Part shown: positions 34,937-47,198 of the stretch, one piece after another
Layout: each line of letters begins with the position of its first letter
Position numbering within the stretch: the stretch's first letter is position 1
Assembly: GCF_038397755.1 (NCBI RefSeq)
Contig: NZ_CP151637.1
Location: forward strand, 4,092,001-4,156,000
DNA length: 64,000 nt
From: Microbacterium sp. LWH7-1.2
GTDB taxonomy: Bacteria; Actinomycetota; Actinomycetes; Actinomycetales; Microbacteriaceae
Direction of reading: 5' to 3'
The notes under the pieces: model-generated
Told to the model about the DNA's origin: nothing
Seen by the model: the letters and a program-made list of their open reading frames with translations, nothing else
The model's database searches: none
Position numbers and translations under genes: made by a program

Positions 34937-34978
34937 GGGAGTCCTTAGAACGAAGAGTGGTGTCGCGGCGCGAAGAAG

Positions 34979-35039
34979 GTTGACGTCAGTCAACAGTTGA
35001 TTTGGGTCAACTATACGCTGATGGTTGACGTGCGTCAAC
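34979..35039 (-). promoter_or_regulatory. Sigma-70 promoter with three MarR-type operators
   Basis: On the minus strand TTGACG (complement of 35033-35038), a 17-bp spacer and TATAGT (complement of 35010-35015) form a near-consensus promoter for the MFS-marR operon. Three 16-bp palindromes GTTGA-N6-TCAAC lie at 34979-34994, 34996-35011 and 35024-35039. One covers the -35 element, the second touches the -10 and start region, the third lies just downstream. This fits repression by the co-transcribed MarR protein. Of the rest of 34937-35282, only the repeat at 35083 stands out. Confidence 0.85.
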
Positions 35040-35082
35040 TATTTCCTCGGGGTTCAGGCGCCACCTTCCCCGCCCACGTCAT

Positions 35083-35188
35083 GTGCTCTCACCGAGATCA
35101 CATGTCGTGCGCGTTCACGGCGTGTGCGCTCGGTGAGTGCACGTGATGTGGACGAGCGGTAGGGAAGCGGATGCTGCGGGCCGCGGCA
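35083..35188. repeat. 60-bp two-stem palindrome, copy 1, within a ~106-bp direct repeat
   Basis: The core 35083-35142 is exactly 60 bp: outer arms of 14 bp (35083-35096 with 35129-35142, one mismatch) starting GTGCTCTC and an inner stem CACATG/CGTGTG. The core and a further ~46 bp recur at 36291-36396 with only a few changes. The extension contains a 9-bp hairpin AGCGGATGC/GCATCCGCT. It lies 140 bp upstream of the AbiEi/DUF559-like gene A. Confidence 0.9.
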
Positions 35189-35282
35189 TCCGCTCCTCCA
35201 CAGGTCGACGGTGGGACGAGTCACGCACAGGTTCCGCGGTGGCTCGGGCGTTGGGCACGGGCGGGGGGGCAGGCTGAGGCGC

Positions 35283-36272
35283 GTGCCGCGCCACCTGACT
35301 TCCGATGAGGCGATGGCGGCCGTGCGCACCCGTGAGCAGTTGCGCGCGAGCGGCATGACCGCCCGGGCGATCGGTGTCGCGGTGGCGGCAGGACGAATGC
35401 GGCGGCTGCAGCGCAACCGATACGTCGAGGTGGGGCTCTGGAATGATCTGTGCCCGGAGTCGCAGCATCTCATCGATGTGTGCGCCGCTGTGGGCGAGAT
35501 GCGCGATGGCGGTGGTGTCGCCTCGCACGAGTCGGCCGGCGTGTTGTCGGAGCTGCCCCTCTATCGACACGCCCCCTCGGCTGTCCATGTCATCACGCCG
35601 GAAGGAATGCGGGCGTCGAGCCGCGCCGGACTGCAGCGCCATGCTGATCGGCTACCGGCCGGCGACATCACCGTGGTCAACGGCATCCGATGCACCGCGC
35701 TGGATCGCACTGTGTTCGACCTGGTGCGCACCCTCAGCATGGAAGCGGCTGTCGCAGTGGCGGATGCCGCGCTGCGCCGCGAGGCGATGCGCGGATCCCA
35801 GTATGACGAGCGGGCTGCTGAAGTCTGGCGGGAGCGGATGCTGCAGCGGTGCGCGCAAGCGCGGGGTGGCCGGGGAGTTCGTCAGGCCGCAGCCGTGATC
35901 AGGTTCGCCGACGGCCGATCGGAATCACCCGGGGAGGCGGTCAGTCGACTGCAGCTGAGCCGTCTCGGGTTCCGCGAATTGCGGCTCCAGGTGCCGGTGA
36001 GTGGACCGGACGGCCGGACGTACCGCGTGGACATCGGCATCGAAGACGTGCGGACCTTCTACGAGTTCGACGGCATGGGCAAGTACACCGACCTGGCGCG
36101 AGCTGCCGGAAAGACGGTGGAGGAGATCGTCCTCGACGAGAAGCGTCGCGAGGACTGGATCCGCGGAACCACCCAGCGTCGGCTCGTCCGCGCCGAGGCT
36201 CCCCACATCATCACTCCGGAGGCGCTCGCTCGTCGCCTCGCGGCGTTCGGGATCACCCCGCCCCGTGGGTGA
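35283..36272 (+). CDS. AbiEi-like / DUF559 protein A, solitary
   Basis: 329 residues from a GTG. The N-terminal half contains a winged-helix-like AbiEi region (TREQLRASGMTARAIGVAVA then MRRLQRNRYV) and a conserved HESAGVL segment. The C-terminal half (from about 210) reads DGRSESPGEAVSRLQLSRLGF, YRVDIGIEDV and YEFDGMGKY, a pattern fitting DUF559/Vsr-like PD-(D/E)XK nucleases with candidates E218, D250, E261 and K267. No AbiEii toxin gene is adjacent. It aligns without gaps, by eye about 60-65% identical, with the protein at 46053. It is bracketed by palindromes at 35083 and 36291. The product may be an endonuclease, a repressor or both. Confidence 0.8.
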   Translation: MPRHLTSDEAMAAVRTREQLRASGMTARAIGVAVAAGRMRRLQRNRYVEVGLWNDLCPESQHLIDVCAAVGEMRDGGGVASHESAGVLSELPLYRHAPSAVHVITPEGMRASSRAGLQRHADRLPAGDITVVNGIRCTALDRTVFDLVRTLSMEAAVAVADAALRREAMRGSQYDERAAEVWRERMLQRCAQARGGRGVRQAAAVIRFADGRSESPGEAVSRLQLSRLGFRELRLQVPVSGPDGRTYRVDIGIEDVRTFYEFDGMGKYTDLARAAGKTVEEIVLDEKRREDWIRGTTQRRLVRAEAPHIITPEALARRLAAFGITPPRG

Positions 36273-36290
36273 GGCCGACGTCGACATCGT

Positions 36291-36396
36291 GTGCTCTCAC
36301 CGAGATCACATGTCGTGCGCGTTCACGGCGCGTGCGCTCGGTGACTGCACGTGAGGTGGACGAGCGGTAGGAAAACGGATGGTGCGGGCCGCGGCA
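36291..36396. repeat. 60-bp two-stem palindrome, copy 2, within a ~106-bp direct repeat
   Basis: The core 36291-36350 is again 60 bp, with arms 36291-36304 and 36337-36350. It starts 18 bp after the stop of AbiEi/DUF559 gene A and lies 1208 bp from copy 1 in direct orientation. About six differences are seen over the first ~100 bases, compared with copy 1. The region ends next to the TetR gene stop. Confidence 0.9.
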
Positions 36397-45754: not shown

Positions 45755-45880
45755 CCTTCGAGGCTACGCCGCCGACCCGACATCCGCCGCCTGCGACGCG
45801 CTGACCACCCGTGCGCCTCGACGCGCGGCCGCTCCCAGGTCCGCCGTCCCTCCGCGCGCGGCGGGCGGCGCGCGGATCAT

Positions 45881-45940
45881 GTGCTCTCGCCGAGGTGACA
45901 CGATCGGTGCGCGCGCAACGTGTGCGCTCGGCGACAGCAC
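45881..45940. repeat. 60-bp two-stem palindrome, copy 3
   Basis: Arms 45881-45894 and 45927-45940 (one mismatch) starting GTGCTCTCGCC; inner stem ACACG/CGTGT. Its first ~30 bases, with the preceding GATCAT, are identical to copy 4 at 47071. It ends 112 bp upstream of AbiEi/DUF559 gene B. Nothing else is seen in 45755-46052 apart from the divergent promoters. Confidence 0.88.
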
Positions 45941-46052
45941 ATCACCTCGTCGCAGCGCAGCGGACCTTCCTCCCCAGCACGCGCATCGGTAGCGACCTCC
46001 ACGAAGTCGACGGGAGACCCAACGGCCCGCGCCACAGAGCCGACCATGGGTC

Positions 46053-47042
46053 ATGCCCAGTCATCTTTCCTTCGCGGATGCCTCGGCCGCGGTCCGCTCG
46101 CGAGCCCAACTGCGTTCCGAGGGGATGAGCGAACGTGAGATCGCGCGAGCGGTCGCAGATGGCGAACTGCGCAGGCTCCAGCGCAACCGGTTCGTGGCGG
46201 AATCGGTCTGGAGCGATCTGTGGCCGGAGTCGCGGCACCTGGTCGAGCTGAGCGCGGCCGCTGCCGAGATGCGTGCCGGAGGGGGTGTCGCCGCGTACGA
46301 GTCCGCAGGTGTACTGCACGCGCTGCCGTTCTATCGGCACATCCCCGACGCGGTGCACTTCACCCTTCCCTCGAGCAGAGGGATGCCGAGCCGCCCGGGC
46401 CTCCGGCGGCACCGCGATCGTCTGCCGGACGATCACATCGACGTCCTGTTCGGCATCCGCTGCACGTCCCTCGAGAGAACCGTGTTCGACCTGGTCCGGA
46501 CGCTCAGTCCCGAAGCGGCCATCGCGGCCGCTGACGCGGCGCTGCGCCAGGTGGCGATGAGGAAGGACGGCTACGACGAGGCCGCCGCTGAAGCGTGGCG
46601 AGAGCGCATGATCGAGCTCTGCGGTCGATCTCGGGGAATGCGCGGCATCCGTCAGGCTGAAGCGGCGATCCGCTTCGTCGACGGGCGCTCGGAGTCGCCG
46701 GGTGAATCGGTCAGCCGACTACAGCTCTCTCGCCTCGGATTCCGGCGGCTGATGCTGCAGGTCGCTGTGCCGGGGCCATCCGGCAAGGACTACTCCGTCG
46801 ACATCGAGATCGAAGACGTGCGCACCTTCTTCGAGTTCGACGGGAAGGGCAAGTATCTCGACGAGGCGATGCGCTCCGGAAGGACACTGGAACAGGTCCT
46901 TCTCGATGAGAAGCGCCGCGAGGACTGGATCCGGGGCGGGACGCAGAAGCGCCTGGTGCGTGCCGAGAGTGCGCACATCGTCACGCCCGAGGCGCTTGCA
47001 CAGCGACTCTCGGCGTTCGCGGTCCGCCCACCTCGCCGCTGA
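46053..47042 (+). CDS. AbiEi-like / DUF559 protein B, solitary
   Basis: 329 residues, exactly the length of paralog A and alignable without gaps. Conserved blocks: LQRNRFV, YESAGVL, SLERTVFDLVRTLS, DGRSESPGESVSRLQLSRLG, YSVDIEIEDVRTFFEFDGKG and EKRREDWIRG. The putative nuclease core is E218, D250, E261 and K267. It has no AbiEii partner. It lies between palindromes at 45881 and 47071, the same layout as gene A, next to a YqaJ-type gene. Start ATG at 46053 has no strong ribosome binding site. Confidence 0.8.
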   Translation: MPSHLSFADASAAVRSRAQLRSEGMSEREIARAVADGELRRLQRNRFVAESVWSDLWPESRHLVELSAAAAEMRAGGGVAAYESAGVLHALPFYRHIPDAVHFTLPSSRGMPSRPGLRRHRDRLPDDHIDVLFGIRCTSLERTVFDLVRTLSPEAAIAAADAALRQVAMRKDGYDEAAAEAWRERMIELCGRSRGMRGIRQAEAAIRFVDGRSESPGESVSRLQLSRLGFRRLMLQVAVPGPSGKDYSVDIEIEDVRTFFEFDGKGKYLDEAMRSGRTLEQVLLDEKRREDWIRGGTQKRLVRAESAHIVTPEALAQRLSAFAVRPPRR

Positions 47043-47070
47043 CCGCTCCCACGCCGCTGGACAGATCATG

Positions 47071-47130
47071 TGCTCTCGCCGAGGTGACACGATCCGCGCG
47101 CGTGGATCGTGTGCACTCGGCGAGAGGACA
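47071..47130. repeat. 60-bp two-stem palindrome, copy 4
   Basis: Arms 47071-47084 and 47117-47130 (one mismatch), inner stem ACACGATCC / GGATCGTGT (9 bp perfect). It begins 28 bp after the stop of gene B and 1190 bp from copy 3, in direct orientation. This copy has the best inner stem of the four. Confidence 0.88.
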
Positions 47131-47198
47131 CGATCTCGACGCGACCGGTGGCGCGCAAGGGGGGTTGCGGTCGGACGTGGCGGTGGCATCCTCGGGGC

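Follow-up and report, generated by a model that had tools for sequence, protein, structure and literature searches.

Dispersed palindromes associated with an AbiEi-nuclease gene family in Microbacterium and other Actinobacteria: a candidate REP-like system

We know of one kind of partner for REP families, the HUH Y1 enzymes; in IS200/IS605 elements, the gene is flanked by subterminal palindromes. REP/RAYT systems, as parts of two papers describe them (PMC2817692, PMC6006769), consist of an enzyme gene bracketed by palindromes, with cognate copies lying between genes elsewhere and one palindrome type per enzyme gene, and, according to the same parts, gene and palindrome co-evolve, the enzyme gene changes faster than its neighbours, and several types can inhabit a single genome (PMC2817692, PMC6006769). 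The copy number of REPs is given, in a part of one of these papers, as usually above 100 per genome (PMC2817692). As for AbiEi proteins, portions of a further paper report that S. agalactiae AbiEi, like Rv2827c, binds its own promoter at 23-bp inverted repeats, two pairs of them in the case of Rv2827c (PMC7319586). Here, we describe modules in which the gene of an AbiEi-like protein carrying a fused nuclease-like domain lies between two palindromes, and we compare them with these systems.

Two palindrome-bracketed modules in one window

The window is the whole stretch of 64,000 nucleotides that was analysed, positions 4092001-4156000 of a Microbacterium genome consisting of one contig of 4.446 Mb, hereafter the home genome. 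It contains two modules of the same architecture, A and B, about 10 kb apart, with the following features in window coordinates:

35071..35154, + strand: A_up, upstream palindrome of module A, about 84 bp (R1 94.3 bits, fold z -5.9)
35283..36272, + strand: gene A, 329 aa, with an AbiEi-like N-terminal part and a PD-(D/E)XK-type (DUF559-like) C-terminal part
35316..35819, + strand: AbiEi-matching region of gene A, residues 12-179 (PADLOC)
35880..36182, + strand: nuclease-like region of gene A, about residues 200-300 (alignment of 31 sequences)
36279..36362, + strand: A_dn, downstream palindrome of module A, in direct orientation to A_up (R1 88.3 bits)
45869..45953, + strand: upstream palindrome of module B (R1 88.1 bits)
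46053..47042, + strand: gene B, paralogue of A, 66% identical to it and of the same domain make-up
47061..47142, + strand: downstream palindrome of module B (R1 91.2 bits, fold z -5.5)

Bit scores refer to R1, a covariance model built from ten copies with A_up among them, and the fold z-scores compare single-strand folding with 200 dinucleotide shuffles. The sequence-only reading had placed gene A between two 60-bp palindromes, 140 bp upstream and 18 bp downstream, and a repeat search together with the letters themselves bears out both the placement and the distances, the two 60-mers being contained in 35071-35154 and 36279-36362; the second module, which the name "module A" had only implied, is also real (45869-47142). 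A_up and A_dn are imperfect palindromes held within a direct repeat of 118 nt (35071-35188 and 36279-36396, 92% identical), and the two flanking copies are 92% alike in direct and 74% alike in inverted orientation. The direct orientation scores higher in 23 of 29 modules, a count that is biased because 27 of them were chosen through a direct-repeat search. The reading of the palindrome as a conserved single-strand hairpin holds only partly, because A_dn (z -2.3) and the upstream palindrome of module B (z -1.0) fold weakly; no more than 2 of 200 plain shuffles attain the self-complementarity score in 44 of the 58 repeats of these 29 modules, and the other 14 fail.

Other repeats of the window deserve mention on their own account. 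A second, shorter hairpin type (GGATGC...GCATCC) occurs at positions 567, 6232, 12308, 35169 and 48291, one of these copies adjoining A_up; elsewhere in the home genome, several places match the end of the 118-mer. At 34975-35039, two 20-nt palindromic motifs of the GTTGAC...GTCAAC type lie before an MFS gene and, judged by eye, could be operators of the adjacent MarR-like regulator, and at 307-490 two 99-bp repeats with 89% identity form a tandem-like pair.

The N-terminal part of gene A matches the PADLOC AbiEi model PDLC02249 over residues 12-179 (E 9.5e-17), and PADLOC AbiEi models also match the corresponding region of gene B. No Pfam or NCBIfam family scores above cut-off for gene A and no PDB entry matches its protein in sequence, while among the 31 aligned sequences Pfam finds AbiEi_4 in seven, AbiEi_1 in one and DUF559 in one. 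Throughout this alignment E218, D250, E261, D263 and G264 are invariant and K267 and Y268 nearly so, a pattern that we take to be that of PD-(D/E)XK enzymes. The HUH Y1 domain (Pfam Y1_Tnp) is absent from gene A and from all 31 aligned sequences at E 0.01. The four neighbours of A and B that were scanned (TetR, MFS, a YqaJ-type protein and one unmatched protein) include no AbiEii toxin (PF08843), which rules out a toxin-antitoxin pair with a gene adjoining A or B and, because the toxin gene is absent there, also membership of AbiE. Cargo of a plasmid or phage was likewise set aside, since nothing in the two collections of plasmid and phage records matches gene A. Finally, gene A diverges faster than its surroundings, with 84% identity against 91-97% (relative G001) and 92-98% (relative G003) for five neighbours.

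Bracketing follows the AbiEi-nuclease family

In relatives, a direct repeat of at least 35 bits spans the family gene in 25 of 41 loci and falls below that score in the other 16, while this threshold is reached neither by any of the 378 other genes of these loci nor by any of 243 shifted window pairs; five of the original 46 relatives were dropped for short flanks, and those kept are not phylogenetically independent. A second set, which overlaps the first (e.g., L156 and L065), comprised 32 loci (3 home paralogues and 29 genus loci), from which L168, L172 and L174 were removed for artefact scores at contig ends, and here 20 of 29 reach 35 bits, as does one control. Across the class, the family is present in 183 of 296 sampled genomes (E <= 1e-25), and bracketing was found at 11 of 24 full-length loci against 0 of 24 outer-flank controls, after removal of 5 truncated loci from 29. 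Five of these 24 loci belong to Microbacterium and three more to the same bacterial family, and outside that family 6 of 16 loci, in four other families, are bracketed; G426 is one of the genomes concerned, and it carries a single additional copy of the palindrome. Chance, or some general property of genes, is thus excluded as the cause of bracketing by the controls (0/378, 0/243 and 0/24), and the association of palindromes with the AbiEi-nuclease family is well supported. An enrichment of palindromes at DUF559-type genes, named as a check from the letters of the window alone, is supported in the relatives (25/41 vs. 0/378) and also in the home genome, where 4 strong copies out of 14 flank A and B.

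In the home genome itself, five family genes are bracketed, namely A, B and those at 1750436, 2215837 (weak, 37.4 bits) and 264621, and the palindromes of A and B are related, while those of the other three are unrelated to A/B and to each other; the family members at 1763137 and 3501845 are without bracketing palindromes. Just upstream of the 1750436 module lies a transposase-like gene, IS256-like by eye (L031 51-1232), with two further copies of the 1750436-type palindrome beyond it.

A set of AbiEi_4 genes bears on which part of the protein matters. It comprised 30 loci from 20 relatives, of which four were dropped (L318 as truncated, L327 and L328 as fragments, L329 as not AbiEi), and the remainder was divided by eye into 20 loci with and 6 without a nuclease. 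Of those with the nuclease, 8 of 20 are bracketed at 40 bits or more, compared with none of the 6 without it, which reach at most 22.9 bits; the bracketed L305 and L326 were classed as nuclease-bearing by eye and have no Pfam nuclease match, the bracketed sister genes L313, L320 and L323 match DUF559, and L319 matches MTES_1575 below cut-off. The gene downstream of the nuclease-free AbiEi_4 genes is AbiEii in all five that were scanned, the sixth being L306. Small as this sample is (0/6 vs. 8/20), it links bracketing to the fused nuclease rather than to the role of an antitoxin. Two loci of this set deserve separate mention: at L319, from another family of the order (G456), a divergent AbiEi_4 gene is bracketed by a 108-bp repeat of 164 bits that is AT-richer by eye, and at L328 (position 1431881 of the home genome) an AbiEi_4 remnant of 47 aa still lies between a repeat pair of 77 bits and is perhaps a relic module.

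Scattered copies, type matching and turnover

At least 14 places in the home genome score strongly with R1, and 4 of these 14 flank genes A and B, a distribution far from random because both genes with 300-bp flanks make up less than 0.1% of the genome. The 1750436-type palindrome occupies at least 25 places, three of them beside its own gene, in a count that merged neighbouring matches and scored 40 of 59 candidates. Most palindromes measure about 75-90 bp, some being longer, and most share a nested-stem layout with, by eye, four half-sites; their sequence varies between genomes while the layout stays mostly constant. An RNA family search gave a single miRNA match below threshold, and the RNA-family reading was dropped on that result. 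With genes called by codon score and L149 excluded, 49 scattered copies from 8 genomes lie between convergent (18), co-oriented (23) or divergent (6) genes, one overlapping a called gene and one being at a contig edge; L115, L116 and L117 (G002) belong to one repeated segment, because their sequence and near flanks are identical.

Throughout the genus, R1 (E <= 1e-6) matches 52 of the 92 genomes that have a homologue (E <= 1e-40) vs. 11 of the 57 that have none; in 10 of these 11, a family member is present that is more distant or broken. Copies can thus occur without a close homologue, as in G161, whose sole family member is a distant one and which has 29 R1 matches when both strands are counted. 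Such genomes are what favours the idea that another enzyme, a transposase, mobilises the palindromes as short non-autonomous repeats, with the nuclease gene merely tolerating or attracting them. We consider this very unlikely, given that two-sided bracketing follows the AbiEi-nuclease family, with none of the 378 other genes affected, and recurs with unrelated palindromes within one genome as well as across actinobacterial families.

Copies also occur in pairs around other genes: TetR and MFS genes in the home genome (2063060/2065418; L025 3061-5503), TetR and a small protein in G004 (L149 89-1457) and a gene that is glyoxalase-like by eye in G005 (L331 ~1134-2424). These three pairs are possibly due to chance and possibly cargo units; with about 20 copies per 4 Mb and eight genomes, rough arithmetic leads us to expect a few such pairs by chance.

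Most scattered copies follow the type of the resident module. Among 52 scattered copies taken from 8 genomes, 37 have their best match in the module of their own genome (G002 9/10, G007 9/11, G005 8/10, home genome 8/10, G006 2/3, G010 1/1, G008 0/2 and G004 0/5), both L149 copies being entered as scattered, and in a label permutation test the observed sum was reached in 0 of 20000 permutations. The copies of G004 resemble the modules of other genomes more than their own. All scattered copies were selected with R1, the model of the home genome, which favours home-type sequences, and therefore this selection does not account for the own-type matches seen in G005 and G007. Across 25 modules, the similarity of the palindromes correlates with that of the proteins (rho 0.47 for the N-terminal, 0.62 for the middle and 0.57 for the C-terminal region), the partial correlations being 0.29 for N given C (reached by 1 of 2000 permutations) and 0.43 for C given N. 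The idea of a palindrome tracked solely by the DNA-binding end is hence unsupported, because the middle and C-terminal regions correlate more.

The main rival explanation of these data is that of a solitary AbiEi-derived transcription regulator, for which the palindromes act as operators: one pair would mediate autoregulation, and the scattered copies would make up a regulon. Type matching would then be regulator-operator co-evolution, and the nuclease domain would be left over or act as a sensor. Binding to inverted repeats in the own promoter is indeed described for both S. agalactiae AbiEi and Rv2827c in the portions of that paper cited above (PMC7319586), the upstream copy does precede gene A, TetR genes lie inside some copy pairs, and an own-type copy at an orthologous site (see below) fits operator co-evolution as well. 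We nevertheless hold this explanation to be unlikely: it covers type matching, but not the second copy behind the gene, nor the excess of convergent over divergent positions among the scattered copies (18 vs. 6 of 49), a poor layout for operators, nor the invariance of the acidic residues E218, D250 and E261, and the clean presence or absence of copies, in addition, suggests gain or loss as units.

This clean presence or absence was seen for modules and scattered copies alike when empty sites in related genomes were compared, a check proposed when the window was first read. The site at 2063060 is empty in G001 and G003, in DNA about 90% identical, and holds a palindrome-like stretch in G005, G006 and G070, and the G005 copy at this orthologous site (L139) is of the G005 type, scoring 100 vs. 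33 for the home type; the site at 2065418 is occupied in G070 and G004, with no recognisable copy in six other genomes. Module B is cleanly absent from G001 and G003, where 19 bp separate the flanks, and module A from G007, where 43 bp do so. Loss of modules by recombination between their ends would leave one palindrome, and it was rejected because none of the three empty sites retains a single one; no target-site duplication was readable.

The same observations raise the question of whether the module moves by itself, as a transposon whose ends are palindromic and whose remains are the scattered copies. The whole module is cleanly absent at the three sites examined, A and B sit at different sites, and in L088, L089, L090 and L093 the module is inverted relative to its flanks. 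Against such a transposon, which we think improbable, many relatives among the matches listed keep the module in one syntenic region, even if position and orientation vary, and gene A is without a match in plasmid or phage records. Movement of the module looks rare, because of this synteny and because A and B are only 66% identical; the genomes hold 1-4 family genes each at E 1e-40. A likeness of 91.7% between both ends of module A in the home genome compares with 82.1% between the orthologous upstream ends of the home genome and G001, and the resemblance of the module's ends to each other could stem from ordinary recombination.

A proposed mechanism and its place among known systems

What the comparisons show is the bracketing, its link to one gene family, the agreement in type between modules and scattered copies, their clean presence or absence, and module ends that resemble each other more than orthologous ends do. 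From this, we propose that the module is probably a REP-like unit in which the AbiEi-nuclease, bound to its own palindrome, is responsible for copying it and keeping it homogeneous. The AbiEi part would bind the palindrome flanking its own gene, by analogy with AbiEi proteins that bind inverted repeats in promoters, and the nuclease part would presumably cut there or close by. A second copy, serving as the repair template, would convert the cut one to the resident type, and such repair might occasionally seed a new intergenic copy. The idea of a REP-like element with an AbiEi-nuclease partner, voiced in the sequence-only reading, thus stands as far as the association goes (25/41 vs. 0/378 for bracketing, 37/52 for type matching), and its enzymatic part stays an argument from association.

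More tentatively, and at somewhat less than even confidence, we extend the proposal to the whole class, in which AbiEi-PD-(D/E)XK fusions may form an actinobacterial non-RAYT system that binds and cuts its own palindromes, spreading them and keeping them homogeneous by cut and repair. The data suggest an undescribed route by which small DNA repeats spread and stay alike in soil actinobacteria. If true, palindrome-dispersing systems arose more than once, and Actinobacteria offer an independent test case for the question of who spreads REPs and who keeps them alike. Many genes now labelled as AbiEi-family antitoxins or as hypothetical would then be the enzymes of unnoticed repeat families, and the re-labelling would be large, with the family in 183 of the 296 class genomes sampled (E <= 1e-25).

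One of the closest described systems is REP/RAYT (the "REPtrons"), with which the modules share the bracketed gene, the dispersed intergenic cognates, one type per gene, co-evolution, a fast-changing gene and the coexistence of types. The differences lie in the enzyme, which in RAYT is TnpA-REP and here combines an AbiEi part with a PD-(D/E)XK-type part and lacks an HUH/Y1 match; in the palindromes, which are longer than REPs (about 75-90 bp in most) and number tens of copies (at least 14 and at least 25 places), not hundreds; and in the flanks of module A, which are clearly in direct order (92% vs. 74% inverted), the preference across modules being the biased count given above. We do not assign the modules to RAYT, because neither an HUH Y1 domain in gene A and the 31 aligned sequences nor a high copy number in the home genome was found. 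With the AbiE type IV toxin-antitoxin systems, they have in common the AbiEi N-terminal region and inverted repeats upstream of the gene, but they differ in the fused nuclease-like domain, in having no AbiEii adjoining A or B and in a palindrome that also lies downstream and is dispersed. The nuclease-like domains DUF559 and REase MTES_1575 resemble the C-terminal part in their conserved acidic core. Titles and opening lines of abstracts in the DUF559 literature show no link to dispersed palindromes, and among the matches listed from open papers no title or abstract opening ties AbiEi/DUF559 genes to them. As in IS200/IS605, whose subterminal palindromes are described in part of one paper (PMC6006769), the gene lies between palindromes, but the enzyme family is another one, and here the 1-4 gene copies per genome (E 1e-40) are mostly syntenic. 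Set against RAYT, AbiE, DUF559 and IS200/IS605, the module therefore belongs to no family that we can name, and it would work like a REP system.
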